A stretch of DNA of 33,938 nucleotides, taken from the NCBI GenBank assembly GCA_022764275.1, contig JALERH010000117.1, positions 1 to 33,938 on the forward strand, in the 5' to 3' direction. A model generated the notes under the pieces. The model saw nothing but the letters and a program-made list of their open reading frames with translations, made no database searches and was not told where the DNA came from. Shown here in pieces: positions 3,655 to 28,824 of the stretch. Source of the stretch: Blautia sp. (GTDB lineage Bacteria; Bacillota; Clostridia; Lachnospirales; Lachnospiraceae). Both the position numbers and the translations under genes were made by a program. The stretch's first letter is position 1, and every line of letters begins with the position of its first letter.

Positions 3655-3664
3655 AAAATGCAGG

Positions 3665-4855: not shown

Positions 4856-4884
4856 TTGACTTTTATTCAGAAAAAAAATACAAT
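4856..4884 (+). promoter_or_regulatory. Sigma-A type promoter of the BMP-family importer operon
   Basis: TTGACT, 17-base A-rich spacer, TACAAT. The match to the vegetative consensus and spacing is good and no other candidate lies closer to the gene at 4928. A 10-bp AT palindrome (ATATTAATAT, 4892-4901) lies just downstream, near the expected transcription start. Confidence 0.7.
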
Positions 4885-4927
4885 GAGCTTGATATTAATA
4901 TTCACAAAATAATAAGGAGGAAGTACT

Positions 4928-6229: not shown

Positions 6230-6255
6230 TTTAAATTCTATATTTTGAATTTGCC

Positions 6256-6288
6256 AAAGGGGAGCTTAAAAAAAGCTTCCCTTTTCTA
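6256..6288 (+). terminator. Attenuating terminator between binding-protein and ATPase genes
   Basis: A 12-bp stem (AAAGGGGAGCTT / AAGCTTCCCTTT, one G-U pair) with a five-A loop, running into TTCTAAT. It looks like a leaky intrinsic terminator. Because the ATPase and permease genes follow with no clear new promoter, partial read-through would set a high binding-protein to transporter ratio. Confidence 0.65.
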
Positions 6289-6395
6289 ATGAAAAAATAT
6301 ATAATAAGAAAAAGTACTGTTTGGCAGACAGGAAGCGCTGTCAGGGAAAGGGCCAGACAGATACATACAAAACAAGGGAAGGGAGGCACAACGTT

Positions 6396-11592: not shown

Positions 11593-11643
11593 ACATTCAC
11601 TCCTCATTTATTTTCACATATTATATACCATAATTTTCCTTAA

Positions 11644-11658
11644 TTGCAAGCGCTTAAA
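11644..11658. promoter_or_regulatory. Possible catabolite-responsive element (cre-like)
   Basis: TTGCAAGCGCTTAAA matches the CcpA cre pattern WTGNNARCGNWWWCA at all but one position. It overlaps the stop codon of the cupin-type gene and lies ~50 bases upstream of the GntR start. Such a match can occur by chance, so this is weak. Confidence 0.25.
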
Positions 11659-12175: not shown

Positions 12176-12225
12176 ATAGATCCTCCTTTTCATATTTCTG
12201 AGTGATTGAATACTAAATATTTTTA

Positions 12226-13191: not shown

Positions 13192-13239
13192 TGAGTTTAT
13201 CTCCTTTTTTTTATATTTCGGTCTAAAGAACGATTGTTT

Positions 13240-14391
13240 TTACGAAGAGACAGAAGTAATATTGACCCATATGTTTCCTTCTTTTGAAGATCTTTCACAT
13301 GCTTCTACAAAACGAAGCCCGTTCAGTCCATCAGTGACAGTGGGATAGTCCACCATTTCAGGAAAAAAGGTTCCATCCTGTTTTGCACGGATACAGGCAG
13401 TAAAGGAGGCATACAGATTGCTCATTGCTTCGAGAAAACCTTCTGTATGGCCGGCTGGCAGACGCGCATAGGAGGACGCTTCTGCCTCGCCGCCACGGTT
13501 GCCTCGGCGCATTTTATGGACATTTCCTTTTTCATCCGTCAAGGTGAACAGCTCGCATTCTTCCTGGTTCCATTCAATGCTGCCTTTTTCGCCAAAAATA
13601 CGGATACAGAAGCTATTTGCATGTCCAAGGGCAATTTTGCTTATCCAGAACATGCCGGTGGCGCCGCCCTCAAATTCTACAAGCACAAAGTCATTATCAT
13701 CCAGAATGCTTTCCGGGATCATGGTATCTGCTTTTGCCAGAACACGTTTTATTTTTAAATGGGTCATAGTGGATACTGCATTTTCAACATGGGTTCCCAG
13801 ATCACTGAGACAATAAGTAGAGCCTCCCTGCATGGGATCCAGACGCCACCCTTCAGGTTTTTGCTTTTCATTGAACAGACGCGCCATTCCGTCCTGCGGA
13901 TACTCGGACATTACGGTACGGATCTTACCGATTTTTCCACTTTGAATCAGACGGGAAATATGTTTTGCTGTCACATGTCCCATATAGGTGTAGGTAACCA
14001 TGAAAAGCAGTTCCTTTTCCTCGGCAAGTTTTTCCAGCTCCGAACCCTGTTCGGCTGTCAGAGCCAGGGGCTTGTCGCAGGCTACATGGATTCCGGCGTT
14101 TAGAAAAGCTTTTGCAATGGGATAGTGACTGACATTGGGGGTAACAATTACTACAAAATCAATCCCATCCTCGCGGCTCGATTCAGCTCTCGCCATTTCT
14201 TCAAAATTTCTGTAGCATTTTTCAGGGGAAATCCGAAGTTCTTTTGCCGTTGTGATATTTTTTGACGGTGTACGGGAAAAACAGCCGGCTGTTAAGATTG
14301 CAAGATTATCAAGATTGATGGCTCTTCTGTGCTGTGCACCAATAAAAGAACCGGGAGCGCCGCCGACCATTCCGTATGTAAGCTGTTTCAT
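13240..14391 (-). CDS. Gfo/Idh/MocA-family NAD(P)-dependent sugar dehydrogenase
   Basis: A 383-residue oxidoreductase. The N-terminal Rossmann domain starts GMVGGAPGSFIGAQHRRA. FVVIVTPNVSHYPIAKAFLNAGIHVACDKPLAL follows, with DKP standing for the usual EKP catalytic-lysine motif. The C-terminal sheet domain contains GGSTYCLSDLGTHVENAV with the conserved His. An ideal AGGAGG five bases before the ATG sets the start. It is the first gene of the minus operon. It should oxidise a sugar or cyclitol (often at C3) using NAD(P). The long-form N-terminus and GID-FVVIVTPN insertion point to the ~380-residue branch rather than to inositol dehydrogenase IolG. Confidence 0.9.
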   Translation of the reverse strand: MKQLTYGMVGGAPGSFIGAQHRRAINLDNLAILTAGCFSRTPSKNITTAKELRISPEKCYRNFEEMARAESSREDGIDFVVIVTPNVSHYPIAKAFLNAGIHVACDKPLALTAEQGSELEKLAEEKELLFMVTYTYMGHVTAKHISRLIQSGKIGKIRTVMSEYPQDGMARLFNEKQKPEGWRLDPMQGGSTYCLSDLGTHVENAVSTMTHLKIKRVLAKADTMIPESILDDNDFVLVEFEGGATGMFWISKIALGHANSFCIRIFGEKGSIEWNQEECELFTLTDEKGNVHKMRRGNRGGEAEASSYARLPAGHTEGFLEAMSNLYASFTACIRAKQDGTFFPEMVDYPTVTDGLNGLRFVEACERSSKEGNIWVNITSVSS

Positions 14392-14650: not shown

Positions 14651-14781
14651 ACTACTAGACAAATAAGGGGGATTGCTGTTATTATGGAATCACCAAGGAG
14701 GTCGAAACGTTGATCGACCGAAAAAACAGTGAATGGATTTCTGGAATCCAACAAAATTTTTCAATTCAAGGAGGAAGAAAA

Positions 14782-15819
14782 ATGAAGAAGAATCTCGTGA
14801 AAAAAATGATGTCAGTAGTTCTTACTGCAGGAATGCTCGCTGGAATGTGCGCAGTACCCGTTGCAGCAGAGGCACCGGAGTTTGAAGAGCAGACGATTAC
14901 CGTTTCCTACAACGCTGCCGAGACAACGCCTCATGGACAGGGTGTATCGAAGTTCAAAGAACTGGTAGAAGAGAAAACCGGCGGAAAAGTAACAGTGGAC
15001 TGCTACTTTAACGGAACTCTTTACAACACCCAGACGGAGTTTGAAGCGCTCCAGAAAGGTGAAGTTGATCTTATCATGGGGTCCCTGAACTCTGCAATGG
15101 AGTATATTCCGGAACTGAAGACCACATTCTGTCCATTCCTGTGGAAGAGTATTGACCATTACAATGGATTCTGGACAAGTGAAGATGGCCAGGCATTACT
15201 GACGAAAATTCAGGATGAACTGGATGTTCACTATTTTACCTTTGCAAGTGCAGGTTCCAGAAATATTGAGCTTACGAAAGACAAAAAAATCACTTGCCGT
15301 GAAGATATGGCAGACATTAAACTTAGATCTGCAGCCGCAGAAAATATGTTGGCCATGGTAGAAGCACTTGGAGCAAATCCTGTTCCAATCGCATTTGGTG
15401 ACACTTATCTTGGTCTGCAGACCGGCCTTGCAGAAGGCCTTGAAGGTGATACCCAGGGTCTTTATGCACAGGGCTTTAATGAAGTATTAAAAAGCATCAC
15501 TCTTACAGGACATGCATTCAGTTTTGATGGATTTATTGCAAGCCAGAAAATTTGGGATACCTGGTCTCCGGAATTACAGGCAGTGATCGAAGAGTCTATC
15601 GATGAAACAAATGCTTACATCAACGGAATTACTGCAGACGCAGAAGCAGCCGCTGCTGATAAATTGGCAGCAGACGGAATTACAATTTATGAGCTGACGG
15701 ATGAAGAATTGAGTGCTTACCGTGAAGAAGTTATGGAATATTTCATCAATTCTGATTACGCACAGGATTACGATATGGAATTGTTTGAAAAAATGAAAGC
15801 AATGGGTGATCAGTTCTGA
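14782..15819 (+). CDS. TRAP transporter substrate-binding protein (DctP family)
   Basis: A 345-residue extracytoplasmic receptor for the TRAP importer encoded downstream. ATG at 14782 follows AAGGAGGAAG; the frame is open 72 bases further up but without a good site. The signal peptide is residues ~1-32 (ends PVAAEA). The Cys at 23 is preceded by AGM, so no lipobox is formed. The mature protein has GQGVSKFKELVEEKTGGKVTVDCYFNGTLYN, typical of DctP, and SAAAENMLAMVEALGANPVPIAFGDTYLGLQTGLAEGLEGD with the carboxylate-binding Arg just before (KLRSAA). TRAP receptors bind organic acids: sugar acids, uronates, sialate or sulfonates. The first gene of the catabolic operon therefore points to an acidic substrate. 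Confidence 0.92.
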   Translation: MKKNLVKKMMSVVLTAGMLAGMCAVPVAAEAPEFEEQTITVSYNAAETTPHGQGVSKFKELVEEKTGGKVTVDCYFNGTLYNTQTEFEALQKGEVDLIMGSLNSAMEYIPELKTTFCPFLWKSIDHYNGFWTSEDGQALLTKIQDELDVHYFTFASAGSRNIELTKDKKITCREDMADIKLRSAAAENMLAMVEALGANPVPIAFGDTYLGLQTGLAEGLEGDTQGLYAQGFNEVLKSITLTGHAFSFDGFIASQKIWDTWSPELQAVIEESIDETNAYINGITADAEAAAADKLAADGITIYELTDEELSAYREEVMEYFINSDYAQDYDMELFEKMKAMGDQF

Positions 15820-15868
15820 TATTTATCATAAAAGACAGCTGCTTTAAGCAGTAACTGATTAGAAACCG

Positions 15869-15902
15869 GCCAACGGATACAGTATGATCTGCATCCGTTG
15901 GC
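15869..15902 (+). other. Intercistronic hairpin between TRAP receptor and membrane subunits
   Basis: A 10-bp stem GCCAACGGAT / ATCCGTTGGC, with an inner CAG/CTG pairing after one mismatch and a short loop. TATAATACTT follows, with no T-run. A smaller CTGCTT/AAGCAG hairpin precedes it (15839-15851). It probably stabilises the receptor message or partly attenuates transcription. Confidence 0.55.
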
Positions 15903-15951
15903 TATAATACTTCAAGCCTTAGTTTTATCAAAGAATAATGGAGTATGATGT

Positions 15952-16461
15952 ATGAATAAACTGAAAAAAATAGTAAATACGATCCTGGATATAGAGGAAA
16001 TATATATTCCTTCTATCCTTTTTGCTGTAGTTTTTGTTCTGTACCTTGCCATGATCTGCTTTCGTTATATCCTAAACTGGAAAATTGCTCCAATTTATGA
16101 GCTGTGCCAGGTGCTTTACCTGGAATGTGCCATGTTGGCAGCATCTTATGGAGGAAGGACAGATAAGCATGTAATCTTTCCGCTTCTGTACGACAGAGTG
16201 CCGCCGAGAGTAAAGATTATCTTCAGACTGATAGCAGATGTTTTTGTGGCTGTTCTGTCTGCAATCCTGATCTGCCCAGCCTGGGAATCAGTTTCTTTTA
16301 TTGCCAGAAAAAAGACATCCGTTTTGAAAATACCTTTTAGCATTGTTTATCTTCCATTTTTAATTTTCGTTGTATTATCTACTTTCTATTACATTGCCAA
16401 TTTTGTAAAGGATCTGAAAATCTTTATGGGGAAAACGGAAGAGAAGGAGGGGAAGAAATGA
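15952..16461 (+). CDS. TRAP transporter small permease (DctQ family)
   Basis: A 169-residue membrane protein with four predicted spans, roughly residues 18-38, 50-68 (containing YELCQVLYLECAMLAASYGGR), 90-110 and 128-148. Its length and the YGGRTDKHVIF motif after the second span match DctQ. GGAG eight bases upstream marks the start. Its stop overlaps the start of the large subunit (ATGA). It forms the membrane complex with DctM and is needed for receptor-dependent, ion-driven uptake. Confidence 0.9.
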   Translation: MNKLKKIVNTILDIEEIYIPSILFAVVFVLYLAMICFRYILNWKIAPIYELCQVLYLECAMLAASYGGRTDKHVIFPLLYDRVPPRVKIIFRLIADVFVAVLSAILICPAWESVSFIARKKTSVLKIPFSIVYLPFLIFVVLSTFYYIANFVKDLKIFMGKTEEKEGKK

Positions 16462-17747
16462 ACGAATATATACTTATTCTGGTGCCAATTATTGTTATTT
16501 TAGTATGCTTTCTCATTAGGGTTCCTATTCCTTTTGCCTTATTAGGGGCTGCTGTTACATATATCCTGATGACGGGAACCAGTTTAAGCGCTGTGTGCGA
16601 TACGGTCATGGGACAGTTATATTCCAACAGTACACTGATTGCAGCACCTTTGTTTATTTTTACAGCCAATGTCATGATGTCCAGTAAGATATCGGAATAT
16701 ATGTATACGTTTATTAAGGCTATCTTTGGTGGTAAAAAGGGAACGACTGCTTACATGAATATTTTTGCATCTCTGATATTCTCTGGTATGAGCGGATCGG
16801 CAGTTGCAGATGTAGCAGGAAACGGGGTAATGGAAATCGAGGAGATGAAGCGTGACGGATATGACATGCCATTCAGCTGTGCGGTTACTGCAGCGACAGC
16901 GGTAATCGGACCTATTTTCCCACCAAGTATACAGATGGTAATATTTGCCATGCTGACAGGGGCTTCTGTAGGAAGTCTTTTCCTGGGCGGTGTGGTTCCG
17001 GCACTTATGCTGGTTATCATGTTTGCAGTGTATGTATGGTACATTTCCAGGAAAAGAGATTATCCTCGCGGACCCAAATATACAATGAAAGAATTCCTGA
17101 AGTTTACCTGGAAGGCTCTTCCTGCACTGGGAACTCCAATTATTCTTCTGGGAGGCATCTATACAGGTGTTGTTACCACCACGGAATCCGGTGTTCTCGC
17201 TGCTTTTTACGGGATTCTGATTTCTATATTTGTATATAAGGTATTAGGCCCTAAGGAACTTATCAAAGCGATTAAAAATACAGTAATCCAGTCAGGTATC
17301 ATTACAGCCTCTCTGGCCTCTTCTTTTGCATTAAGTTATGTGACTGCAAGATCCGGTATGGGCGTTGCTCTGGCAAATGCGGTAGAAGGAATTACGACAA
17401 ATCCGCTGGTGTTTATGTTCCTGGTAAATATTGTATTTATTATTGCCGGAATGTTTGTTCCCACTGAAATTTCTACCTTTATTATTACGCCGCTTTTGAT
17501 TCCAATCGTAAACGCTTTGGGAATCAATATGATTTATTTTGGTGTTGTTACTTCTATTAATATCATTCTTGGAAACGTTACACCACCTTTCGGATTTCTT
17601 TGCTTTACCATAAGTGGAATGACAGGCGTAAACCTCGGCAAGATTTTTAAAGAGATGATGCCAATGATTATCGGTATGTTTATTGTATTGATCCTTTTGA
17701 TTCTGTTCCCGAATCTGATTCTGTTTATTCCGAGCATGATGGGATGA
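16458..17747 (+). CDS. TRAP transporter large permease (DctM family)
   Basis: A 429-residue protein with about twelve membrane segments. Hallmarks are PIPFALLGAAVTYILMTG, APLFIFTANVMMSSKIS, FSGMSGSAVADVAGNGVMEIEEMKRDGYDMPFSCAVTAATAVIGPIFPPSI and the C-terminal IILGNVTPPFGFLCFTISG. The SGSAVAD and PP(S/F) helix-break motifs are the ion and substrate sites of the elevator-type DctM domain. Its ATG overlaps the DctQ stop by four bases. About 110 bases, including a small GGTGAA/TTCACC hairpin (17776-17791), separate it from the next gene, with no clear promoter. Confidence 0.93.
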   Translation: MNEYILILVPIIVILVCFLIRVPIPFALLGAAVTYILMTGTSLSAVCDTVMGQLYSNSTLIAAPLFIFTANVMMSSKISEYMYTFIKAIFGGKKGTTAYMNIFASLIFSGMSGSAVADVAGNGVMEIEEMKRDGYDMPFSCAVTAATAVIGPIFPPSIQMVIFAMLTGASVGSLFLGGVVPALMLVIMFAVYVWYISRKRDYPRGPKYTMKEFLKFTWKALPALGTPIILLGGIYTGVVTTTESGVLAAFYGILISIFVYKVLGPKELIKAIKNTVIQSGIITASLASSFALSYVTARSGMGVALANAVEGITTNPLVFMFLVNIVFIIAGMFVPTEISTFIITPLLIPIVNALGINMIYFGVVTSINIILGNVTPPFGFLCFTISGMTGVNLGKIFKEMMPMIIGMFIVLILLILFPNLILFIPSMMG

Positions 17748-17858: not shown

Positions 17859-19256
17859 ATGAAACTGGATTATAAGGTTAAGATAGGTCTGGCCCCTGTA
17901 CGTCGTGACTGTACACCCCGTCCGGGTCAGTTTAACTGGGAGTTTGCGGAGGAAAGAGGGAGAAAAATTGTTTCTTATATAGAAGAGAATTACACAGATA
18001 AGCATGTATCCTTTGCAGATACAAAAGAACTCAATGATGTTCAGACAATTGTAAATGAAAAAGACGCGCTCCGTCTGGCTGAGATCTTTAGGGCACAGAA
18101 GGTGGATGCAATTCTGGTAATCAATACAAACTTTGGAAACGAAGAAGCAATCGCGATACTGGCAAAAGAAATGAACGTACCTCTCCTGTTATGGGCACCT
18201 CTGGATGACCATTATGAGGCAGACGGGACTCGTCTTACGGATTCCCAGTGCGGACTTTTCGGGACATCAAGACTTTTGGGAAGATATCATATTCCATTTT
18301 CTTTTATCCCATCCTGTCATGTACATGAACAGGAGTTTAAAGAAGGACTGGAACAGTTTGTACGTGTAACCTGTATGGTGAAGAATTTCCGGAAGCTGCG
18401 AGTAGGACAGTTTGGGCTTCGCCCGAAAGCCTTTACCTCTGTTATTTATAATGAAGACGATCTGATCGAGCAGTTTGGGATTCATGCCATTCCGGTGAAC
18501 ATGGCAGTAATTCAGGATCTTTTTAACAAAATACTGGAGACAAGGGATGAGGAACTGGAAGAGGGAGCAAAATTACTGGCATCCCGCTATGTGATGGATG
18601 AGCCTACAGCACCTCTTTTGAAAAAAATATACGCTTTTGTACTTTTGTACAAAGATCTGTTTGAAGAATACGATTTGAGCCTGTGCAGCGCAGAATGTTG
18701 GAGTGCGACACCTCTGGCTGTCGGGGCGGCACCCTGTACGGCATATTCAATCCTGGCGGATGAAGGCTATCTGATCGGATGCGAAGGAGATATGTACTGT
18801 ACCATCACAATGGGACTGCTTTCCTGTGCGGCATTGGGAGAAAGCGTTCCCTTTATGGGTGAATTCACTGTAAAACATCCGGAAAACAGAGATGTGGAAC
18901 TTCTGTGGCATTGCGGGCAGTTTGCATATTCTCTGAAAAAAGAAGGAAGCCACTGTTCACAGCTGAACCAGAGACAGTGTTTTGAAGTAAAAGAAGGAAA
19001 TTATACTCTTTGCAGGATGGATGAGGACAGAGGAAGGTTTACGATCCTTCCCGGTACTTTTAAGAGCGCACAGGGACCATACACAACCGGAACCTATATA
19101 TGGGCAGAATTCGAGGATTTGAGGAAATGGGAAAGAAAGGTTATGGAAGGCCCATACATTCACCATTTCGCAGAGATAGAGGGAGATTATACAGAAGTAA
19201 TCGCAGAGTTCTGTAAATATGTACCGAATCTTCATCTGGACAGCGTGGAAAAATAA
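17859..19256 (+). CDS. L-fucose/L-arabinose isomerase-family protein
   Basis: A 465-residue protein of the FucI/AraA superfamily, shorter than E. coli FucI (~590) but normal for the short Firmicute branch. The C-terminal half carries LCSAECWSATP, GCEGDMYCTITMGLL (near residue 308), PFMGEFTVKHPENRDVELLWHCG (near 351) and GPYIHH...GDYTEV (near 431). These include the Glu, Asp and His metal ligands. It should interconvert an aldose and a ketose with Mn2+. AGAGGAG precedes the ATG. With the PfkB kinase and class II aldolase later in the operon it forms an isomerise, phosphorylate, cleave set, as for fucose. The TRAP importer argues for an acidic sugar; SQ isomerases of sulfo-EMP2 pathways belong to this family, to my knowledge. 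Confidence 0.85.
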   Translation: MKLDYKVKIGLAPVRRDCTPRPGQFNWEFAEERGRKIVSYIEENYTDKHVSFADTKELNDVQTIVNEKDALRLAEIFRAQKVDAILVINTNFGNEEAIAILAKEMNVPLLLWAPLDDHYEADGTRLTDSQCGLFGTSRLLGRYHIPFSFIPSCHVHEQEFKEGLEQFVRVTCMVKNFRKLRVGQFGLRPKAFTSVIYNEDDLIEQFGIHAIPVNMAVIQDLFNKILETRDEELEEGAKLLASRYVMDEPTAPLLKKIYAFVLLYKDLFEEYDLSLCSAECWSATPLAVGAAPCTAYSILADEGYLIGCEGDMYCTITMGLLSCAALGESVPFMGEFTVKHPENRDVELLWHCGQFAYSLKKEGSHCSQLNQRQCFEVKEGNYTLCRMDEDRGRFTILPGTFKSAQGPYTTGTYIWAEFEDLRKWERKVMEGPYIHHFAEIEGDYTEVIAEFCKYVPNLHLDSVEK

Positions 19257-19286: not shown

Positions 19287-20351
19287 GTGAAAACAATAAA
19301 AATTGAGGAATTGAAAGAGTTTTCGAAAAAAGCCCTTTTGTGGAAAGGTGTAAGCCCAGAGGATGCAGAAACAACGGTCAACGCGCTGGTTACCACAGAT
19401 ATGTTTGGAGTACTCTCTCATGGAACCAAGAATCTCTATCAGTATATTTTAAAAATGGAAAAGGGCGGTCTTGATCCACAGGCAGTACCAGAAGTGGAGG
19501 CAGAAGGTCCTGCATGGGCTTTGATAAATGGCAATGCAGCTATTGGAATGGTTTCTGCCTGCAAAGCGATGGATCTTGCGATCGAAAAAGCAAAAGCCTG
19601 CGGGATCGGATATGTTGGCGTAAAAAACAGCTGTCATTTCGGTGCAGCAGGATATTATGCAAACAGGGCTGCAAAAGCCGGATTAATGGGGATTTCCATG
19701 AGCAATGCGGATCCGAATATGTCAATACCGAACAGCTGTGCTGTGGCACTTGGAAATAATCCATTTTCCTTTGCTGCTCCATTAAAGAATGGAAAATCGG
19801 TATTTCTGGATATTGCATTAAGTAATGTAGCTGCGTTAAAGGTGGTCATGGCAAAGGAAAAAGGGATATCCGTACCGGATTCGTGGCTGATCGATTCAGA
19901 AGGAAAACCAACTACGGACCCAAGTGATTTCCCCGGAGGTTCGTTCCTCCAGCCTATGGCAGCACATAAAGGATACGGTCTTGCTATTATGGTTGAGATT
20001 CTTGCATCCGTATTGACCGGTTCCGGAATTATGAGTGACGTAACAAGCTGGAATCTGGATCTTCCGGCAAAAAATAATGCAGGACATGCCTTTATCGCAA
20101 TCGATATTACAAAGATGATGCCTGCAGAATTATTTGAAAAACGTATGATGCGTATGATCACAGAACTGAAAAATGCTCCAAAAGCAAAAGATGCAGAGCG
20201 TATCCTGGTTCCGGGTGAGATGGAGTGGGAAAAATATGAGCTGGCAGAGAAAAGGGGCTATATTGAACTGACGGATGCCATGGCAGAGAATATGGAGAAA
20301 TTATCTGCCCTTACCGGTATTCCTGTAACCGTACAGGATAAACCGGAATAG
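19287..20351 (+). CDS. Malate/L-lactate/sulfolactate dehydrogenase family (Ldh2) oxidoreductase
   Basis: A 354-residue NAD(P)-dependent 2-hydroxyacid dehydrogenase of the Ldh2/MdhLDH family, which has a non-Rossmann fold. GTG at 19287 is the start, with AAGGAG ten bases upstream. The conserved motifs VLSHGTKNL (catalytic His), VKNSCHFGAAGYYA, LGNNPFSFAAP and MAAHKGYGLAIMVEIL are all intact, and the length is standard. Family members oxidise malate, L-lactate, ureidoglycolate, 2,3-diketo-gulonate or (R)-sulfolactate, so the substrate is open. In this operon it would oxidise or reduce a hydroxy acid made by the aldolase/aldehyde dehydrogenase steps. Confidence 0.9.
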   Translation: MKTIKIEELKEFSKKALLWKGVSPEDAETTVNALVTTDMFGVLSHGTKNLYQYILKMEKGGLDPQAVPEVEAEGPAWALINGNAAIGMVSACKAMDLAIEKAKACGIGYVGVKNSCHFGAAGYYANRAAKAGLMGISMSNADPNMSIPNSCAVALGNNPFSFAAPLKNGKSVFLDIALSNVAALKVVMAKEKGISVPDSWLIDSEGKPTTDPSDFPGGSFLQPMAAHKGYGLAIMVEILASVLTGSGIMSDVTSWNLDLPAKNNAGHAFIAIDITKMMPAELFEKRMMRMITELKNAPKAKDAERILVPGEMEWEKYELAEKRGYIELTDAMAENMEKLSALTGIPVTVQDKPE

Positions 20352-20379: not shown

Positions 20380-21039
20380 ATGAAAACAATGATGGATATT
20401 TTAAAACTAACCGGTATATGCCCGATCCTGGCATATGCAGAACCTGACCAGGCAGCTCCTGCAGCACGTGCGCTGGTAGAAGGGGGACTGCCGATCATAG
20501 AGGTGCTTCAGAGAGATGAAAATGCTCTGAATAATTTAAAGACGATTGTACGTGAGGTACCACAGGCGTATGCCGGTGCCGGAACAGTCCTGACTGTCAG
20601 ACAGGCAGAAGAAGTGATCGATGCAGGTGCAAAATTTGTCGTCATGCCGGGATTTAAGAAAGAAGTTGTGGAGTACTGCCTGGATCATGATGTAATGGTG
20701 ATTCCTGGCTGTGCGACCCCTACGGAAGTAATGATGATTGCAGATTATGATATAAAAGTGGCCAAATTCTTTCCGTTTTACCAGATGGGAGGCTGCCAGA
20801 CGCTGAATGAGATCAGCGGTCCTTACCCTGATATGCGTTTTATTGTAACAGGTGCTTTGAACTCAGAGAACTTCATGCCGGCTCTGGAAAGCCCAAAAAC
20901 ACTGGCCGCAGGCGGCGATTGGATGTTCCAGGATCATGATGCGCTGAAAAACAGGGATTATAAACAGATATCCAGAAATATGCGGGAATCCGTATGCCGT
21001 GTTCTGGACTGGAGAAATGCAAGAAAATTCGGGTTTTAG
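20380..21039 (+). CDS. KDPG/KHG-type aldolase with altered phosphate pocket
   Basis: A 219-residue class I aldolase. Catalytic residues correspond to E. coli Eda: Glu41 and Arg45 in IEVLQRDENA, Thr69 in GAGTVL, and the Schiff-base Lys129 in VAKFFPFYQMGG. The phosphate-binding sites differ: TGGI is TGAL (157-160) and GGSW is GGDW (178-181), so Ser184 of Eda is Asp here. A negative Asp in that pocket argues for a substrate without a terminal phosphate, giving pyruvate plus an unphosphorylated aldehyde. GGGAGGAG lies upstream of the ATG. It sits between the Ldh2-type dehydrogenase and an aldo/keto reductase, all in one operon. Confidence 0.85.
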   Translation: MKTMMDILKLTGICPILAYAEPDQAAPAARALVEGGLPIIEVLQRDENALNNLKTIVREVPQAYAGAGTVLTVRQAEEVIDAGAKFVVMPGFKKEVVEYCLDHDVMVIPGCATPTEVMMIADYDIKVAKFFPFYQMGGCQTLNEISGPYPDMRFIVTGALNSENFMPALESPKTLAAGGDWMFQDHDALKNRDYKQISRNMRESVCRVLDWRNARKFGF

Positions 21040-21054: not shown

Positions 21055-21903
21055 ATGAAGTCATTAGCAGATGGATATCAGTTGAGCAATGGTGTTGTGA
21101 TCCCCTGTATGGGGCTTGGTACATGGCAGTCTAACGGACCGACGACTATCCAGGCTGTAAAATCAGCACTGAATATGGGATATCGTCTCGTGGATACCGC
21201 AGCAGCCTATGGAAATGAGATCAGTGTCGGTCAGGGAATCAAAGAAAGCGGGATTCCAAGGGAAGAAATTTTTGTTACAAGTAAACTGCGCAATTCCTGC
21301 CATGGTTATGATGCTGCCATGGAAGCATTTGAAAAGACGATCGGAAAACTTGGGATCGACTATCTGGATCTATATCTGATCCACTGGCCCAATCCGGTCC
21401 AGTACAGACCGATCTGGAAAGAAGCGACGATCGGTACATGGAAAGCATTTGAAGAGCTTTATCGTGCCGGAAAGATCAGAGCCATTGGAGTCAGCAACTT
21501 TATGCCTCATCATATTGAACTTCTGAAAGAAAACTGTGATATTTTACCTATGGTGAATCAGCTGAAGCTTTGCCCGGGTGTGACACAGCCGGAGACAGTA
21601 AAATACTGTCAGGAAAATGAAATTATCGTGGAAGCATACAGCCCGTTTGGTACAGGAGCGATCTTCCAGGTGCCGGAGATGAAGGCCCTTGCTGAAAAAT
21701 ATCATAAATCGGTAGGACAGATCGTATTGCGCTGGTGTATGCAGATGAAGTTTGTACCACTTCCAAAATCTGCAAATGCATCCCGTGTAAAAGAGAATTC
21801 GGAGATTTTTGATTTTGAACTGTCGACAGGGGATGTGGAGTTTATTTCCGGACTGAAGGGAGTCTGTGGAGAAGCCCCGGTTCCGGACGAGATTGATTTT
21901 TAA
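21055..21903 (+). CDS. Aldo/keto reductase
   Basis: A 282-residue (beta/alpha)8 NADPH-dependent reductase close to the 2,5-diketo-D-gluconate reductase branch. The catalytic tetrad is complete: Asp47 and Tyr52 (RLVDTAAAYGN), Lys77 (VTSKLRN) and His110 (YLIHWPNP). The cofactor-binding end LPKSANASRVKEN is present. The start lies 16 bases after the aldolase stop, with GGAGAGGAG as ribosome site. It could reduce the aldehyde released by the aldolase or a keto-sugar acid, giving a redox outlet next to the aldehyde dehydrogenase. The substrate is not determined. Confidence 0.9.
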   Translation: MKSLADGYQLSNGVVIPCMGLGTWQSNGPTTIQAVKSALNMGYRLVDTAAAYGNEISVGQGIKESGIPREEIFVTSKLRNSCHGYDAAMEAFEKTIGKLGIDYLDLYLIHWPNPVQYRPIWKEATIGTWKAFEELYRAGKIRAIGVSNFMPHHIELLKENCDILPMVNQLKLCPGVTQPETVKYCQENEIIVEAYSPFGTGAIFQVPEMKALAEKYHKSVGQIVLRWCMQMKFVPLPKSANASRVKENSEIFDFELSTGDVEFISGLKGVCGEAPVPDEIDF

Positions 21904-21939: not shown

Positions 21940-23403
21940 ATGAGAATCAGAAATAAGGAAATGCTTACAAATCATGGCAACATAGAAGGACGTAGAATTG
22001 TTACAGAGCTTCTGGATGCGGGTCTGGATGCACTGGATCCTTATCTGAGGGTCAGGGAATTTGTCAAGCTGGAAAATAACAGAATCATTCTGGATGACCG
22101 GGGCTATGAAATGAAAGGTGATCCTCATGCCGGACCTGCTATATATGATTTAAAGGATTATGACAGAGTTTTTGTGATCGGGGCAGCAAAGGGAATCCAG
22201 CGTGCTGCCCTGGCCATGGAAGAGGTGCTTGGAGATGTGCTGACGGCAGGGCATGTTATTGGCAAGCACGGGGAAGAAATCCTGTGTAAGAAAATCGGAG
22301 TAACCCTGGCCGGGCATCCGGTTCCGGATAAATGCTGCGTAGAAGGCTGTAAAAAGATCGAAGCGCTGGCAAAGGATATTACGGAACGGGATCTTGTATT
22401 TATCATTACGGGAAGCGGCTGCGGGTCTTTAATGACTTATCCGTCAGAAGGAATATCTATTGAGGACATCAGTGCATTCACGCATATGATGCAGATTGAA
22501 AAGGGAGTCCCTACCAGTGACCTGAACCAGATACGGACTCATATAGACCGTTTTAAAGGGGGAAGGCTGGCAAGGCTCTTTGCCCCGGCAGCGCAGGTAC
22601 ATATGACAACCGCTGACCCCTCAAAAATGAATACGCCGGTAATGAGGATGACGTATTTTGAAATGTTGGGGATCAATACTTTTTTTCCTCAGGTTGCAAC
22701 CGCATCAACATATAAAGACTGTATTGCAATCATCAGAAAGTGGGATGCCTGGGATCGTACACCGGAATCCATACGGGAGCATCTTCTTGCGGGCGGGCCG
22801 CATAATGAGAATATGGGGATTGAAGAGTATGAGACTCTGCATGCAAGATTTTTTGGACTGATCTTTAAGGATTCCACCGTATATCCTGCTGTACGAAAAA
22901 AGGCACAGGAGCTGGGGTACCGATGTATCATGCTTTCAGAATATATGCAGGCAGAAGCCAGAGAAGCCGGATTTGTGAATTCATCCATGGCACTCTGTTC
23001 CCAGAGAATGGGAGAACCTTTTGAGGTACCGGTGGTCCTTATGACATCCGGAGAAAATGTGGTTACAGTTGGAAAAGAACCCGGGGTGGGAGGCAGAAAC
23101 CAGGAATACTGCACAGCTGCGGCTATTAATATTCAGGGAAATAAAAAAATCGTATTTGGAGCGGTGGACACGGATGGAACGGATGGACCGGGCGGCTTTA
23201 TTTATCCCGGAGCACCGGAATGCCTTGCCGGTGCCGTGGTGGATGGGGATACCTTCGAGGAAGCAACGAAAGCAGGGATAGATATGTGGGAGATGCTAAA
23301 GACCCACGGTACATCGGAAGGCCTGTGGAGGCTTGGGTGCGGGGTAGATGCTGTAAGCAGTGTTTCTGCCCTGGATCTTGGAATTATTTTGATCATGAAA
23401 TGA
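21940..23403 (+). CDS. Divergent glycerate-2-kinase-type (MOFRL/DUF4147) kinase
   Basis: A 487-residue protein, ~70 longer than typical glycerate 2-kinases. Family features kept are VIGAAKGIQ (catalytic-type Lys84), AGHPVPD (124-130), SEGISIED, KGGRLARL (206-213), GGRNQE (~383) and TDGTDGP (~410). Changed features are GSGCGSL for SGGGSSL, loss of the SDVxGD...ASGP segment (TADPSKMNTP stands there), and GVDAVSSVSALDL where GPTGTNVNDL is expected. The overall fold and kinase activity look likely, but the acceptor pocket is remodelled, so the substrate may be a hydroxy acid other than glycerate. AAAGGA stands four bases before the ATG, a tight spacing. It directly precedes the enolase relative, suggesting consecutive steps. 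Confidence 0.8.
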   Translation: MRIRNKEMLTNHGNIEGRRIVTELLDAGLDALDPYLRVREFVKLENNRIILDDRGYEMKGDPHAGPAIYDLKDYDRVFVIGAAKGIQRAALAMEEVLGDVLTAGHVIGKHGEEILCKKIGVTLAGHPVPDKCCVEGCKKIEALAKDITERDLVFIITGSGCGSLMTYPSEGISIEDISAFTHMMQIEKGVPTSDLNQIRTHIDRFKGGRLARLFAPAAQVHMTTADPSKMNTPVMRMTYFEMLGINTFFPQVATASTYKDCIAIIRKWDAWDRTPESIREHLLAGGPHNENMGIEEYETLHARFFGLIFKDSTVYPAVRKKAQELGYRCIMLSEYMQAEAREAGFVNSSMALCSQRMGEPFEVPVVLMTSGENVVTVGKEPGVGGRNQEYCTAAAINIQGNKKIVFGAVDTDGTDGPGGFIYPGAPECLAGAVVDGDTFEEATKAGIDMWEMLKTHGTSEGLWRLGCGVDAVSSVSALDLGIILIMK

Positions 23404-23431: not shown

Positions 23432-24739
23432 ATGTCAGGGACAACAATTATTTCTGTAAATGCCAGACAAGTATATACAAACCGGAGAAATCCCGGTGTG
23501 GAGGCGATCGTAACAACAGAAAACGGGGCAGTCGGACGGGCTATGTGTACATCCGGTGTTTCTATAGGGACGCATGAGGTTGACTTTTCCTTTGACGGAG
23601 GGGCGAAATTCCGTGGAAAAGGGGTGATGCGTGCTGTAAATAGTGTAAAGGAGGTCATAAGCCCGGCTCTGATCGGGATGGATGCGGCGAACCAGCTTGC
23701 CTGTGACCAGGCAATGCTTTCCATTGCGGAAAATGCAAAGGAGAAGCTGGGAGGAAACGCTGTCGCAGCAGTATCCGCGGCGATCCTGAAAGCCGGTGCA
23801 AACGCACTGGGGATTCCTCTTTACCGCCATATCGGAGGAGCCGGGGCGATGTATCTTCCGGTGCCGGGTGTGGCGATGGCTGCAGGACATGACCGCTATG
23901 GCGGCGGGATTACGACTCCCGGAGGGAAGCCCACCATGTCTGTGATGTGCTATGGTTTTGACACTTTCGCTGAGGCTTCCTATGCCTGCTGGGATATCCA
24001 TACCCGCTGGTGTGAAAAAATGAAAAAACTTTTTGGCGGAGAGCCGGGCCTCAGGGATTTCATCGTAATTCCCAAAGGAATTTATAAGTCAGATGAAGAA
24101 ATCTGGGATGAAATGATGAAAACTATTATCGAAGCCGGATATGAGGGAAAAGTCGGATTCCAGATGGATGTGGCAACAGACACCTATCACAACAAAGAAG
24201 ACGGAAAGTATTATGGTCTGTTCAACGATCAGCCGAAGACAAAAGACGAACTCTATGAGTTCTATATGCGCATCGTAAAAGAGTATCCGTTTGTGATCAT
24301 CGAGGATCCTTTCAATGAAGATGATTATGATACGACAGCGGCATTTACAAAGGACAGCGGGATCCAGGTCGTGGGTGACGACCTGTTTACGACCAATCCA
24401 AAACGTGTGGCATATGGAATCTCAAAAGGTGCGGCGAATACCATTCTGTTAAAGGTAAATCAGGTGGGGACCATTTCCGAAGCCCTGGAAATGATCCAGT
24501 ATGCATATAAATTCGGATACGCGGTCATGCCGTCTGACAGCCGTGGAGAGGGAGAATCCATCGGGGATTACGCGGTCGGGATCAATGCAGGCTCCATCCG
24601 GGAAAGCGGGATCGGAGCACGTGGAAACCGTCTCCTGGAGATCGAGGAGGAACTGGGGCCAAAGGCGAAGTTTATCGGTGCAAGAGGGCTGAAAGGATTC
24701 CGTAATCAGGAAAGAGCAGATCAGCTGAATCAGAAATAA
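23432..24739 (+). CDS. Enolase-family paralogue lacking key enolase catalytic residues
   Basis: A 435-residue protein with full-length enolase architecture. Kept: metal ligands Asp246 (FQMDVATD), Glu291 (IIEDPF) and Asp316 (VVGDDLFTTNPKR), Lys341 (LLKVNQVGT, yeast Lys345) and the loop serine in TSGVSIG. Lost: the GDEGG motif with general-acid/base Glu211 (aligned LRDFIVIP), the QEF motif (Glu168; aligned PTMSV after a four-residue longer loop), His373-Arg374-Ser375 of SHRSGE (here SDSRGE), and Lys396 (here Arg390). The N-terminal DSRGNPTVE is TNRRNPGVE. It should therefore not be a housekeeping enolase. A metal- and Lys-dependent elimination on another acid is likely. AGGAG nine bases upstream supports the start. 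Confidence 0.9.
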   Translation: MSGTTIISVNARQVYTNRRNPGVEAIVTTENGAVGRAMCTSGVSIGTHEVDFSFDGGAKFRGKGVMRAVNSVKEVISPALIGMDAANQLACDQAMLSIAENAKEKLGGNAVAAVSAAILKAGANALGIPLYRHIGGAGAMYLPVPGVAMAAGHDRYGGGITTPGGKPTMSVMCYGFDTFAEASYACWDIHTRWCEKMKKLFGGEPGLRDFIVIPKGIYKSDEEIWDEMMKTIIEAGYEGKVGFQMDVATDTYHNKEDGKYYGLFNDQPKTKDELYEFYMRIVKEYPFVIIEDPFNEDDYDTTAAFTKDSGIQVVGDDLFTTNPKRVAYGISKGAANTILLKVNQVGTISEALEMIQYAYKFGYAVMPSDSRGEGESIGDYAVGINAGSIRESGIGARGNRLLEIEEELGPKAKFIGARGLKGFRNQERADQLNQK

Positions 24740-24751
24740 GAGGTGATACGT

Positions 24752-26185
24752 ATGTACAAACAGTATATCGGCGGAAAAATGGTAGACGGTCTGGGAAAAG
24801 AAATGCCGGTCTATAATCCTGCAACAAATGAAATTATTGATACAGTAGGGGCTGCAACAGGTACACAGGCGATCGAAGCACTGGAAATCGCGCAGAAAAC
24901 CTTTCAGACATGGTCAAAGACTTCTGTGAATGAAAGGATCGGATGGATGCTGAAATTGCGGGATGCGGTACTGGAAGAGAGGGAAGAGATCATCGACCTT
25001 TTGTCAGCAGAATCCGGAAGACCTTATGCAAACGCGTGCCAGGATTTCAACTGGTTCATTGAAAGCTGTACCTATTATGCAGAAGAAGCAAAAAGGATGA
25101 CCGGAACTTCTTTCCCGAATTATGGGACACCGAATGGAGAATGCTATAACATTGTAGAATACCGCCCTATGGGAGTCGCGGTAGGGCATATGGCCTGGAA
25201 TTATCCTCTTGGAAATGCGGGGCTTAAGATATGCCCGGCCGTTGTTTCCGGCTGCACGACAGTGGTGAAGCCGTCCATTCAGACCCCGCTGGCTACTTTG
25301 CGGATCGGGGAAATCGCAGAGAGGATCGGATTCCCGGCAGGCGTATTCAATATTATCACGGGCTCATCAGAGGAATTGGGAGCAGCTCTGAATTCCAGTA
25401 AGATCCCAAGACTGATCACTCTGATCGGATCCAGTGAGACAGGACGCAGGATTATGGAGCAGGGCTCCACCTCTGTAAAAAAATATTCCCTGGAACTTGG
25501 GGGAAATGCGCCGGTTATTGTAATGGACGATGTAGATGTGGACTTTGTGGCAAAAAATATCGTCCTTAAGAAAGTGGGCAATGCGGGACAGACCTGTGTA
25601 TGCTACAACCGCATTTATATTCATGAGAGTATCTACGAGGAGATGATTGAGAAAGTAAAAGAGCATCTTGCGGACGTTACAATCGGGAAGGGACGCGACG
25701 CCGGAGAGGTGGTCATGGGACCGCTTATTAATCGTGCGGCACGGGACAGGATGCTGGATCTGATTGACGATGCGGTAAAGAGTGGTGCGAAGCTGGTTGC
25801 AGGCGGCGAGATTCCAAAGGGATTTGAAAGCGGCAATTATATTACACCGGCTCTCCTTCGGGATGTCAATGATTCTATGAGGGTGTCCAAAGAAGAAATA
25901 TTCGGGCCGATTATCCCGCTTCAGCCGTTTTCGGATCTGGATGAGGCGCTGAAGCTTGCCGTAGATTCTGAATACGGCCTCGCTTCGTATTTCTATGGAC
26001 ATAATTCCAGGGAAATCGCAAAGGCCGTAGAAGCCTTTGAATCCGGGGAGGTATTTGTAAATGTAGGAGGGGGCGGCCCGCAGACACCACATGCGGGTTG
26101 GAAGCAGTCCGGTGTGGGATGCGACAAGTCACGCTGGTCCCTGGAGGAATACTATGATCTGAAAATGGTCTCCATCTGTCCGTGA
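24752..26185 (+). CDS. NAD(P)-dependent aldehyde dehydrogenase (GabD/lactaldehyde branch)
   Basis: A 477-residue non-phosphorylating ALDH. Catalytic Glu248 is in SLELGGNAP and the nucleophile Cys282 is in NAGQTCVCYNR, a pattern shared with succinate- and sulfolactaldehyde-type enzymes. KVGNAGQ, EEIFGPI and GWKQSGVG are also in place. ATG at 24752 is taken over GTG at 24743 because AGAGGTG then serves as ribosome site. It oxidises an aldehyde to the acid in the cytoplasm; in this operon the aldehyde probably comes from one of the two aldolases. It overlaps nothing and ends 23 bases before the next start. Confidence 0.92.
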   Translation: MYKQYIGGKMVDGLGKEMPVYNPATNEIIDTVGAATGTQAIEALEIAQKTFQTWSKTSVNERIGWMLKLRDAVLEEREEIIDLLSAESGRPYANACQDFNWFIESCTYYAEEAKRMTGTSFPNYGTPNGECYNIVEYRPMGVAVGHMAWNYPLGNAGLKICPAVVSGCTTVVKPSIQTPLATLRIGEIAERIGFPAGVFNIITGSSEELGAALNSSKIPRLITLIGSSETGRRIMEQGSTSVKKYSLELGGNAPVIVMDDVDVDFVAKNIVLKKVGNAGQTCVCYNRIYIHESIYEEMIEKVKEHLADVTIGKGRDAGEVVMGPLINRAARDRMLDLIDDAVKSGAKLVAGGEIPKGFESGNYITPALLRDVNDSMRVSKEEIFGPIIPLQPFSDLDEALKLAVDSEYGLASYFYGHNSREIAKAVEAFESGEVFVNVGGGGPQTPHAGWKQSGVGCDKSRWSLEEYYDLKMVSICP

Positions 26186-26208
26186 TGGTGAAAGTCGGAG
26201 GAAAAGCT

Positions 26209-27186
26209 ATGACAGAGAAAAGGTTCGATGTAATTGGAATCGGAGACCCATACCAGGATCTGCTGGTAGAGGTTGACAGGCTGCCGGAACATAACCAGAA
26301 GATCCGTATGCACGAGTGGTGTTTCCAGGGAGGCGGAAATGTTCCTACGGCAATGGCTATGGCGGGAACCCTGGGCCTGAAGGTGGGAGTCGTATCCATA
26401 GTCGGTGATGATATGCTCGGGAATACGGCAGAAGCGGATTATAAATTTAACCATGTGGATACCTCACATCTGATCAAGGTAAAAGGAAAAAGGAGTAATT
26501 TTTCTGTCTGTATCTCGGAACGGGCAAATGTCGGAAAAGAGTTTATCTGCAAAGCGGGAAATTTTCCGCCGCTTGGCGTAAAGGATCTGGATGAGGACTA
26601 TATCCGGTCAGCCAGGATGATCCATATCGGAGAATTTACAGAAGCAATTCTCACAGCTGCCCGCTGGATCCATGAAGAAGGAGGCAAGGTCAGTATTGAT
26701 GCTGCTTATTACCGTCCGGATATTTATGAAAACTATGAGCATATAGACATATTTATCGGGTCAGAAGATTATTACCGGGAATTGTGTAAAGACAAAGGTT
26801 TTACTCCGTCAGATTATCGGACGGCAATGGAATATGTGAAAGCACAGGGGCCGGAAATCGTTGTATTCACATTTGGGCCGGATGGCTGCAAAGGTGTTTA
26901 CGAGGACCGGTACTTTGAAGTCCCTGCTTTTAAAGTGGATGTCGTAGATTCCACCGGTGCAGGAGACGTATTCCACGGAGCCTTTGTGTATGCTTATCTG
27001 CAGGGCTGGAATCCGGAAAAAAGTGCCAGGTTCTGCTCTGGTGCATCTGCGATAAAATGTACAAGGTTAGGCGGCAGGGCAGGAATTCCGACACTTCCGG
27101 TTCTGGAAAGATTCTTGGAAACAGGAGAGATTGACTATACGGAAATAGACGAGAGAGTGAATTTTTACTGTGCAGGTACATACTGA
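26209..27186 (+). CDS. PfkB/ribokinase-family sugar kinase
   Basis: A 325-residue kinase. The N-terminal FQGGGNVPTAMAMAGTLGLKVG is the first PfkB signature region. DSTGAGDVFHGAF (~247-259) is the second, with catalytic Asp253 and the anion hole. The longer open frame from 26182 is rejected because CGGAGG lies just before ATG 26209. Members phosphorylate ribose, fructose, 2-keto-3-deoxygluconate, 6-deoxy-6-sulfofructose and others; nothing in the sequence fixes the choice. It precedes a class II aldolase, so phosphorylation of a ketose at C1 before aldol cleavage is the simplest reading. Confidence 0.9.
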   Translation: MTEKRFDVIGIGDPYQDLLVEVDRLPEHNQKIRMHEWCFQGGGNVPTAMAMAGTLGLKVGVVSIVGDDMLGNTAEADYKFNHVDTSHLIKVKGKRSNFSVCISERANVGKEFICKAGNFPPLGVKDLDEDYIRSARMIHIGEFTEAILTAARWIHEEGGKVSIDAAYYRPDIYENYEHIDIFIGSEDYYRELCKDKGFTPSDYRTAMEYVKAQGPEIVVFTFGPDGCKGVYEDRYFEVPAFKVDVVDSTGAGDVFHGAFVYAYLQGWNPEKSARFCSGASAIKCTRLGGRAGIPTLPVLERFLETGEIDYTEIDERVNFYCAGTY

Positions 27187-27197: not shown

Positions 27198-28025
27198 ATG
27201 TTAATGGATTTAAAATCAATTCTTGGAATTGCGGAGGAAAGAGGCTGCGCCATTGGGGCATTTAATGTTTATAATATGGAAACCTTGATCGGAGTGGTGG
27301 AAGCAGTCAAAGAAACAGGAGCTCCTGTGATCATACAGATGTACAGCCGTCTGTTTGACAACAGGGATGCAAGGTATGTGTCTCCTATGATTTACCAGGC
27401 TGCAAAAGAAATCGATACACCAATCTGTTTCCATCTGGATCATGGTGCAGGAATCGAGACAGTGATGCGTGCTTTGCGTGTTGGTGTGACAGGCGCTATG
27501 ATCGATGCCTCTACCTATCCGTTAGAGGAGAATATTGCAATTACCAGACAGGCCGTGACACTCTGTACAGCCTGTGGGGTAACCGTAGAAGGGGAACTTG
27601 GCCACGTAGGTGGGGCTGGCGATGAAACCATGAGTGCATTCACCGAGGTAGAGGAAGCCGCCCGGTTTGTAAAAGAAACGGGTGTTTCAGCACTGGCGGT
27701 TATGGTTGGAACGGCCCATGGTCATTACAAAAAAGCTCCGGTTCTGGATATTCAGAGAATCCGGGATATCCACGAAAAAGCGGGCATACCGGTGGTGCTT
27801 CATGGAGGCTCCGGAGTTCCGGATGATCAGATCCGTATGGCAATTAAAGCCGGTGTGCGTAAAATTAATTTTGCTACAGATATCTGCTGCGCATTTTTGA
27901 ATGGGATTTTTGAAAAAGGCAATCAGGTTGGCCCATTGGATCGCTATATGGTAGATCCCACAAATGCGGTAAAAGAGTATGCGATTGAAAAAATACGTTT
28001 ATTAGGAGCAGACTTGAAAGCGTAA
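27198..28025 (+). CDS. Class II (Zn) ketose-bisphosphate aldolase, FbaA/GatY-like
   Basis: A 275-residue TIM-barrel aldolase. Zinc and catalytic residues are present: Asp81-His82 in HLDHGAG, Glu in VEGELGHVGG, His in VGTAHGHYKK and His in VLHGGSGVP. The phosphate-binding GxxHGxYK, HGGSG and KINFATD elements are intact, so a phosphorylated ketose is cleaved to DHAP plus an aldehyde. GAGGAG overlaps the preceding stop codon. It is clearly distinct from the KDPG-type aldolase at 20380, which appears to prefer an unphosphorylated substrate. The likely partner is the PfkB kinase immediately upstream. Tagatose- or fructose-type substrates are alternatives. Confidence 0.92.
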   Translation: MLMDLKSILGIAEERGCAIGAFNVYNMETLIGVVEAVKETGAPVIIQMYSRLFDNRDARYVSPMIYQAAKEIDTPICFHLDHGAGIETVMRALRVGVTGAMIDASTYPLEENIAITRQAVTLCTACGVTVEGELGHVGGAGDETMSAFTEVEEAARFVKETGVSALAVMVGTAHGHYKKAPVLDIQRIRDIHEKAGIPVVLHGGSGVPDDQIRMAIKAGVRKINFATDICCAFLNGIFEKGNQVGPLDRYMVDPTNAVKEYAIEKIRLLGADLKA

Positions 28026-28038: not shown

Positions 28039-28824
28039 ATGAAAGATCTGGAAATGTTTAGTCTCGAAGGAAAAACAGCAATTATCACAGGTGCAGAGCG
28101 CGGAATCGGATTGGAAATCGCAGCAGGCTTTGCCAAAGCAGGGGCAAATATCGTAATTGCCGGACTTATGGAATCTGAATTTGACCATGCGATTGAGTAT
28201 GTAAAAAAGGCGAATGATGTAAAATGTGTCTGCATTCAGACAGATGTCTCTGTAGAAGATTCGGTAAAAAATCTTGTAAAAAAGACCCTGGAGCTATTTC
28301 CAACGATTGATATTCTGGTAAATAATGCAGGAATCAATAAGCTTGCTCCGGCAGAAGAAATGCCGTTGGAGGTCTGGCAGAAGATCCTGAATGTAAATCT
28401 TACCGGGCAGTTCCTGATGTGCCGGGAAGTTGGTTCTGTGATGCTGAAGCAGGGAAAGGGAAATATCGTGAATATTGCATCCATGTCGGGGCTTGTGGTG
28501 AATCCGCTTCCACAGCAGCAGTGTGCATATAACTCTTCAAAAGCAGGGGTCATCATGCTCACGAAATGTCTGGCAAATGAGTGGGCACAGAGAGGAATCC
28601 GTGTCAATGCCATTGCTCCGGGATTTACCCGCACACCGCTGACTGCAAAACGTCTCAATACACCAGATGATCCTGCGGTGAAAAAGTGGATTGGAGGTAC
28701 TCCCATGAATCGGGTGGCAGATCCCCGGGAAATGGTGGGACTTGCTATTTATTTTGCAAGTGATGCATCTACTTTTACCACGGGGACTGTTCTGCAGGTG
28801 GATGGAGGATATACCTGTCTGTAA
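28039..28824 (+). CDS. Short-chain dehydrogenase/reductase (SDR)
   Basis: A 261-residue classical SDR. The cofactor motif is TGAERGIG (17-24), with NNAG (95-98). The catalytic elements are ASMSG and YNSSK (Tyr164, Lys168), and the C-terminal end is VLQVDGGYTCL. It is close to the gluconate 5-dehydrogenase and 3-oxoacyl-reductase-like branch. It uses NAD(P) to interconvert a hydroxyl and a keto group on a sugar acid or polyol. It is the last gene of the catabolic operon, 13 bases after the aldolase, and is followed by a terminator hairpin. Confidence 0.92.
   Translation: MKDLEMFSLEGKTAIITGAERGIGLEIAAGFAKAGANIVIAGLMESEFDHAIEYVKKANDVKCVCIQTDVSVEDSVKNLVKKTLELFPTIDILVNNAGINKLAPAEEMPLEVWQKILNVNLTGQFLMCREVGSVMLKQGKGNIVNIASMSGLVVNPLPQQQCAYNSSKAGVIMLTKCLANEWAQRGIRVNAIAPGFTRTPLTAKRLNTPDDPAVKKWIGGTPMNRVADPREMVGLAIYFASDASTFTTGTVLQVDGGYTCL

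Follow-up and report, generated by a model that had tools for sequence, protein, structure and literature searches.

What reaction could an enolase relative catalyze in a catabolic operon once its catalytic acids have been replaced? The question is raised by P0001, an enolase-like protein encoded in the window, i.e., the whole 33,938-nucleotide stretch of Blautia sp. DNA analyzed here (Table 1). To our knowledge hardly any function besides that of enolase is attributed to members of the enolase subgroup, as the initial annotation of this DNA likewise stated when it singled out the protein as a candidate for an elimination reaction on an acid other than 2-phosphoglycerate (2PG), a candidacy that is supported by the substitutions, the second enolase of the genome, the tree and the operon described below.

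Table 1. Features of the window relevant to the enolase-like gene
Feature	Coordinates	Strand	Remarks
GntR/FCD regulator, AllA/DUF4867-like, xylose-isomerase-like TIM barrel, Gfo/Idh/MocA oxidoreductase (divergent group)	10915..14391	-	operon link by position only
TRAP transporter DctP	14710-15819	+	probable uptake of acidic solute (whole transporter)
TRAP transporter DctQ	15952-16461	+	same transporter, 14710..17747
TRAP transporter DctM	16458-17747	+	same transporter, 14710..17747
Fucose/arabinose-isomerase-family aldose isomerase	17859..19256	+	best NCBIfam sulfoquinovose isomerase NF048012, 109 bits, cut-off 700
Ldh_2 family 2-hydroxy/2-oxo acid dehydrogenase	19287..20351	+	best NCBIfam L-sulfolactate dehydrogenase, 240.8 bits, below cut-off 500
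KDPG/KHG-type aldolase	20380..21039	+	
Aldo/keto reductase (AKR), DkgA-like	21055..21903	+	
Glycerate-2-kinase-like protein (DUF4147/MOFRL), probable C2-phosphorylating partner	21940..23403	+	28 nt upstream of enolase-like gene; motif GSGCGSL
Enolase-like lyase P0001, 435 aa (putative)	23432..24739	+	enolase fold, sequence comparison
Aldehyde dehydrogenase (ALDH)	24743..26185	+	SSADH-like by HMM
PfkB-family sugar kinase	26182..27186	+	30% identical to E. coli YihV; shared C-terminal KCTRxGGRAGIP motif
Class II ketose-phosphate aldolase	27198..28025	+	
Short-chain dehydrogenase (SDR), gluconate 5-dehydrogenase-like	28039..28824	+	

At 19-10029 (+ strand) the window further encodes components of sugar-type ABC transport, an AraC regulator and, along with ABC genes, a Bmp-family binding protein; the best model for the last two permeases is a "putative B6 ABC transporter". 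The AllA/DUF4867-like protein of the divergent group (11654-12235, - strand) is a weak match. Both P0001 and the glycerate-2-kinase-like protein are probably soluble.

Like enolase (EC 4.2.1.11; relatives ~34–40% identical among the matches listed), P0001 consists over its full length of Enolase_N and Enolase_C domains in an enolase fold, an architecture that had been claimed from the start, and retains the metal ligands D246, E291 and D316 and the base K341, also as claimed and in agreement with the site table described below; the loop-1 serine (S44) is likewise kept. Unlike enolase, it has neither the GDEGG nor the QEF glutamate, it reads SDSRGE instead of SHRSGE, so that the His-Arg-Ser order is gone, and the carboxylate-side lysine of GQIK is replaced by R390, all of which had been predicted and is borne out by the alignment. 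Two changes were absent from the initial list, namely R155 in place of the conserved histidine of NGGSHAGG and K166 directly preceding the lost Gln-Glu pair, so that the replaced acid/leaving-group and phosphate-loop positions are R155, K166, P167, T168, D369, S370, R371 and R390. The loop that replaces GDEGG is modeled with low confidence (pLDDT <50 at residues 206–208), and the nearby E204 is not conserved among the relatives.

As described in a study of the Mycobacterium tuberculosis enolase (PMC10619443), Lys335 takes the alpha proton and Glu204 is the acid acting on the hydroxyl, the phosphate is bound by Arg364 and the carboxylate is contacted by Glu163 and Lys386, whereas His154 is said to touch the 2PG hydroxyl in one place and to have a role at the phosphate in another. 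The loss of the acid residues, together with the retention of K341 and of the ligands, suggests that in P0001 the proton-abstraction half of the enolase reaction has been kept and the leaving-group half replaced. Thus, the earlier proposition that both the acid/base partner and the phosphate contacts are replaced stands for the acid side, whereas the phosphate contacts seem to have been rearranged and not lost, S44 being kept and R155 and R371 being new and conserved.

A separate canonical enolase, the presence of which the initial annotation had proposed to check, is encoded on another contig (C2) of the same genome and reaches 632.8 bits with the NCBIfam phosphopyruvate hydratase model TIGR01060 (cut-off 300 bits), a threshold that P0001 (287.4 bits) does not attain. 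Three of the nine variants tested exceed this cut-off (L043:10001-11263, 312.7 bits; L097:9547-10854, 326.9; L102:1615-2886, 308.8), all of them without the catalytic acids, and some members of the group may therefore be labeled enolase. In genome G149 a variant and a 38% identical relative, presumably canonical, share one contig, which argues against mixed-up assemblies.

The scan of genome contigs yielded 46 loci, 14 of which (L032-L044, L075) encode proteins 53–82% identical to P0001 and 32 proteins at most 39% identical. Genome searches added L078 (in G149, 61%), L097 (in G214), three copies in G786 and members in two genomes of another phylum. Profile matches were found in 2/398 genomes of the same phylum, the genome of the window included (cut-off 1e-150), in 2/301 of the phylum of G211, itself included (cut-off 1e-120), and in 0/378 and 2/375 genomes of two other phyla (cut-off 1e-112 each); the variant group is rare and scattered across phyla. 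G786, from the same phylum as L043, a Chloroflexota record, carries three enolase-like copies (L102, L103, L104) and three kinase homologues.

The site table compares 21 members with 58 canonical rows picked by their GDEGG and SHRSGE motifs; the invariance of these two columns in the canonical rows is due to that choice, whereas the canonical His, Gln-Glu and Lys columns are invariant (58/58) independently of it. The metal ligands are present in all 21 members and K341 in 20, while no member has a Glu in either the GDEGG-glutamate or the QEF-glutamate column. The replacements are nearly invariant as well: R155, K166, S370 and R390 each occur in 20/21 and R371 and T/S/N at position 168 in 21/21. 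D/E is found at position 369 in 15/21. In the rows inspected, the exception to the group-specific residues is the second of the two tandem copies of L044 (L044:4486-5760), which lies beside an intact copy, has Asp in place of the catalytic lysine and has lost several of these residues. In an unrooted tree of the 21 members and 30 of the 58 canonical rows, the members lie on one side of a branch with an SH-aLRT of 100 and a length of 2.87 changes per column; long branches lead to L044b and L104. The initial suggestion of a separate clade tied to this operon therefore applies as far as the separate group and the conserved operon are concerned, but the group is wider than the operon.

A co-diverged kinase and, in distant members, short gene sets are what the present analysis adds to the initial annotation. 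The glycerate-2-kinase-like protein of the window, which scores 128.1 bits with DUF4147 and 66.9 bits with MOFRL, resembles glycerate 2-kinases of the GckA/MOFRL class in these two domains and in the NQE and DTDGTDGP-like stretches common to 1x3l and 2b8n; with the NCBIfam glycerate 2-kinase equivalogs, models that are archaeal by name, it scores 86.6 (cut-off 550) and 76.8 bits (cut-off 670). A homologue of this kinase lies at most ~6 kb from the enolase-like gene in 20/22 loci, directly adjacent in most, the two loci in which none was seen being contigs of only 7.3 and 8.4 kb. Kinase homologues are otherwise infrequent, occurring in 8/119 genomes of the phylum (E <= 1e-20), two of which are the pair carriers G000, i.e., the genome of the window, and G214. 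When 20 sequences from 19 pair loci (two from L102; L130 omitted) were placed in a tree with eight others, the pair kinases fell on one side of a branch with an SH-aLRT of 99. Furthermore, the SGGGSAL-type motif [ST]GG[GS]S[AS]L is kept in all eight other kinases and changed in 19/20 pair kinases, which together with the position in the tree sets the partner apart from the GckA/MOFRL class; the single ordinary motif belongs to the L103 kinase, the gene of which is convergent with the enolase-like gene. The genome of the window has a second kinase homologue (G000:C107, 28% identical) with the ordinary motif and thus an ordinary relative of each of the two pair proteins. That the enolase-like protein and the kinase diverged together is more readily explained by a new substrate than by a redundant pathway for glycerate.

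The catabolic-operon setting, another early claim, is corroborated by the conservation of the operon in the close group, which comprises the window, L032-L041 and L075 and in which 9 of the 11 relatives have sequence beyond the enolase-like gene. ALDH, a PfkB-type kinase and the isomerase are found in all nine (the PfkB-type kinase of L037 being only 29% identical), and the class II aldolase, at 55–61% identity, in seven (the contig of L034 ends, and L037 has a 41% homologue). The KDPG aldolase, the Ldh_2 dehydrogenase and the AKR also belong to the conserved operon and the SDR to several copies of it, while a DUF4867 gene follows the aldolase in 4/9 (L035, L038, L039, L041). In L041 a polysaccharide lyase family 8 gene (L041:19192-21288) lies ~1.5 kb downstream of the DUF4867 gene, and upstream of the operon of L037 two ETF subunits, an FAD-linked oxidase and a full LarA are encoded (L037:448-5135) in an arrangement that resembles a lactate-utilization operon.

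Around the more distant members L042, L078, L044 and L097 the sugar genes of this operon were not seen. By Pfam, L042 encodes a SorC-type regulator, the kinase, a branched-chain-type ABC transporter, the enolase-like protein and a Lar_N/DUF362-like protein, genes for an FGGY kinase and a GH3 protein lying farther away; by similarity, L078 has the same gene set. L044 encodes a TctA transporter, a Lar-like protein similar to that of L042, two enolase-like proteins and the kinase, and in L097 the kinase, the enolase-like gene and a Lar_N protein that carries what we take to be the LarA motifs come after genes for ABC permeases, recognized by similarity, and for a probable binding protein, recognized by eye. 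The shortest gene sets are thus transporter, Lar-type protein, kinase and enolase-like protein, and within the neighborhoods, which were scanned in part, they suggest uptake of an alpha-hydroxy acid followed by its racemization, its phosphorylation at C2 and its cleavage to a compound that enters central metabolism directly. In L130 and L131, which represent two genomes of a further phylum, the enolase-like gene is the last of what appears by eye to be an acyl-CoA operon, with AMP-ligase and acyl-CoA dehydrogenase among its genes (L130:1-10770, L131:687-6885), the kinase of L130 lying in two frames.

Taken together, these data tip the balance, if only just, toward an enolase-fold lyase acting on a C2-phosphorylated alpha-hydroxy acid other than 2PG, with the kinase supplying the substrate. 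The glycerate-2-kinase-like enzyme would phosphorylate the C2 hydroxyl of the acid, the carboxylate of which would be bound in P0001 by the metal on D246, E291 and D316, with R390 standing in for the carboxylate-side lysine and with the phosphate held by S44 and R371 and perhaps R155. K341 would then remove the C2 proton as in enolase, and the C3 leaving group, placed most likely against R155 and K166, would depart without needing a proton, the usual glutamates and histidine playing no part in its handling. The reaction would yield PEP or an enol phosphate resembling it. Of the two, PEP is favored because the shortest gene sets, as far as their neighborhoods were scanned, contain no additional enzyme of the sort another product would require, and PEP in turn would imply that the acid has three carbons and carries its leaving group at C3. 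That group would most likely be anionic, sulfite from 2-phospho-3-sulfolactate representing the best-known natural option. On the other hand, the frequent D/E at position 369 places a negative charge near the leaving-group side and does not favor an anionic group, and K166 could act as proton donor to an ordinary hydroxyl. The low-confidence loop in place of GDEGG, the FGGY kinase and GH3 gene of L042, the acyl-CoA-like operons of L130 and L131, the three variants above the enolase cut-off, the kinase-less loci and the ordinary, convergent kinase of L103 also count against this explanation.

If the leaving group were an ordinary hydroxyl, two other reactions could be envisaged. The kinase might phosphorylate the C2 of an aldonate and the enolase-like protein, with K166 or D369 as acid, might eliminate the C3 hydroxyl to give the enol phosphate of a 2-keto-3-deoxy acid for the KDPG-type aldolase of the operon; K166 is nearly invariant and the aldolase, Ldh_2, AKR and, in several copies, SDR genes are found together as in sugar-acid routes, but no aldolase occurs among the scanned neighbors of the short sets L042, L044 and L097, and the ATP cost would be odd for a dehydration that other enzymes perform directly, so that this scheme appears improbable. 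More doubtful again is an ordinary 2PG enolase isozyme closing, within a ketose-1-phosphate pathway, the branch that leads from glyceraldehyde via glycerate and 2PG to PEP: exactly such a chain would result from the isomerase, the PfkB kinase, the aldolase, ALDH and the glycerate-2-kinase homologue, and L043, L097 and L102 pass the NCBI enolase cut-off, yet the known acid-side residues are replaced group-wide while the genome has a canonical enolase, and the partner kinase has diverged as well. That the protein is a non-catalytic paralogue, a scaffold or a regulator is very improbable; the second copy of L044, deprived of K341, indicates that inactive copies do arise, but the near-universal retention of K341 and of the metal ligands, the strong purifying selection and the pairing with the kinase speak for catalysis.

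A narrower form of the lyase explanation, compatible with it and in our opinion unlikely, has sulfolactate as the substrate of the kinase, in a sulfo-EMP2-like operon, and 2-phospho-3-sulfolactate as that of the enolase-like protein, which would free sulfite and leave PEP. The pair would then be a sulfolactate 2-kinase and a 2-phosphosulfolactate sulfite-lyase and would account for anaerobic C–S cleavage in Clostridia and Chloroflexota, replacing a route of the type of the sulfolactate sulfo-lyase SuyAB; we consider this assignment, too, unlikely. It would be favored by the ability of sulfite to leave without a proton, by the Arg that takes the place of the residue touching the leaving hydroxyl and by the Ldh_2 protein, whose best match is the sulfolactate dehydrogenase model, albeit below cut-off. 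In one report (PMC9594981) the parts named for sulfo-EMP2 include an isomerase, a class II aldolase and DUF4867, for which a role in ring opening, as SqvB, is proposed in sulfosugar operons, and the kinase is a PF00365 protein. The operon shares with this pathway (SqvD, SqvB/DUF4867, SqiK, SqiA) the isomerase and aldolase families and, in the 4/9 relatives, an adjoining DUF4867, and the best PDB chain for the aldolase by sequence is the sulfofructosephosphate aldolase 8q58 (181.7 bits), with YdjI (179.4) and AgaY (174.8) scoring almost as high; the operon differs from the pathway in having a PfkB instead of a PF00365 kinase, an ALDH without the proposed sulfonate residues and the additional kinase–enolase pair. 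Across the operons the PfkB protein does not keep K27/N109, which we take to be the sulfonate residues of YihV. For the sulfolactaldehyde (SLA) dehydrogenase RlGabD, another paper proposes Arg/Arg or His/Asn as sulfonate residues (PMC10599462); at these positions, counted from the motifs of that paper, the ALDH of the window has Leu and Gly, both arginines being missing, and in all 10 operon ALDHs the proposed residues are replaced by Ile/Val/Leu and Gly. A YihQ-type sulfoquinovosidase was found neither next to the operon nor, at E <= 1e-40, elsewhere in the genome of the window, YihQ-like enzymes occur in just 3/18 carriers (29–31% identical) and the GH31 protein beside L038 is not YihQ-like, even if some sulfo-EMP gene clusters also lack an SQase according to the same paper (PMC10599462). 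A sulfite-reductase domain is present in 10/16 carriers vs 71/150 family genomes, without clear enrichment and with carriers that belong partly to other families; DUF4867 is present in 14/18 carriers, but in G000 and G149 it adjoins other isomerases and FGGY-like kinases (by similarity). The D/E at position 369 and the acyl-CoA-like operons of L130 and L131 are further points against sulfolactate. In the matches listed by a literature search that left the subscription literature mostly uncovered, none relevant linked enolase or glycerate kinase to (phospho)sulfolactate.

The reading of the whole operon as one for sulfoquinovose is weakened, the YihQ, GH31, ALDH/PfkB-residue, sulfite-reductase and DUF4867 results being unsupportive or neutral, and the sulfoquinovose context survives only as one reading of the kinase–lyase pair. 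The isomerase is nearer to enzymes encoded in probable D-apiose operons (~33% identity), operons of this kind harboring its nearest plasmid relatives, which also counts against sulfolactate, and D-apiose was for this reason considered as the operon sugar; a kinase, aplK, and transketolases, aptA/aptB, are named for apiose operons (PMC13001218). This candidate was rejected by reasoning, since a class II aldolase would have no sensible reaction to catalyze on apulose.

Two known enzymes come close to the proposed kinase-dependent lyase and are set apart from it by their descriptions. Carboxyphosphonoenolpyruvate (CPEP) synthase of bialaphos biosynthesis is an enolase homologue with a substrate other than 2PG; it is biosynthetic and keeps the C3 hydroxyl as leaving group, and a literature search on it gave nothing among the matches listed, subscription papers being mostly uncovered. 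ComA, the phosphosulfolactate synthase, is reportedly called in its structure paper an enolase that is not an enolase; phosphosulfolactate and PEP would be common to both systems if the sulfolactate reading is right, the formation of sulfite and PEP from phosphosulfolactate being chemically the reverse of the ComA reaction, whereas ComA belongs to another TIM-barrel family and is biosynthetic.

Should the lyase explanation be correct, it would provide a second reaction in the enolase subgroup and a compact way of reaching a glycolytic intermediate with a kinase and a lyase. Were sulfolactate the acid, sulfur cycling would gain a desulfonation route; otherwise, the pair would still point to an unknown acid catabolized via a phosphorylated intermediate.
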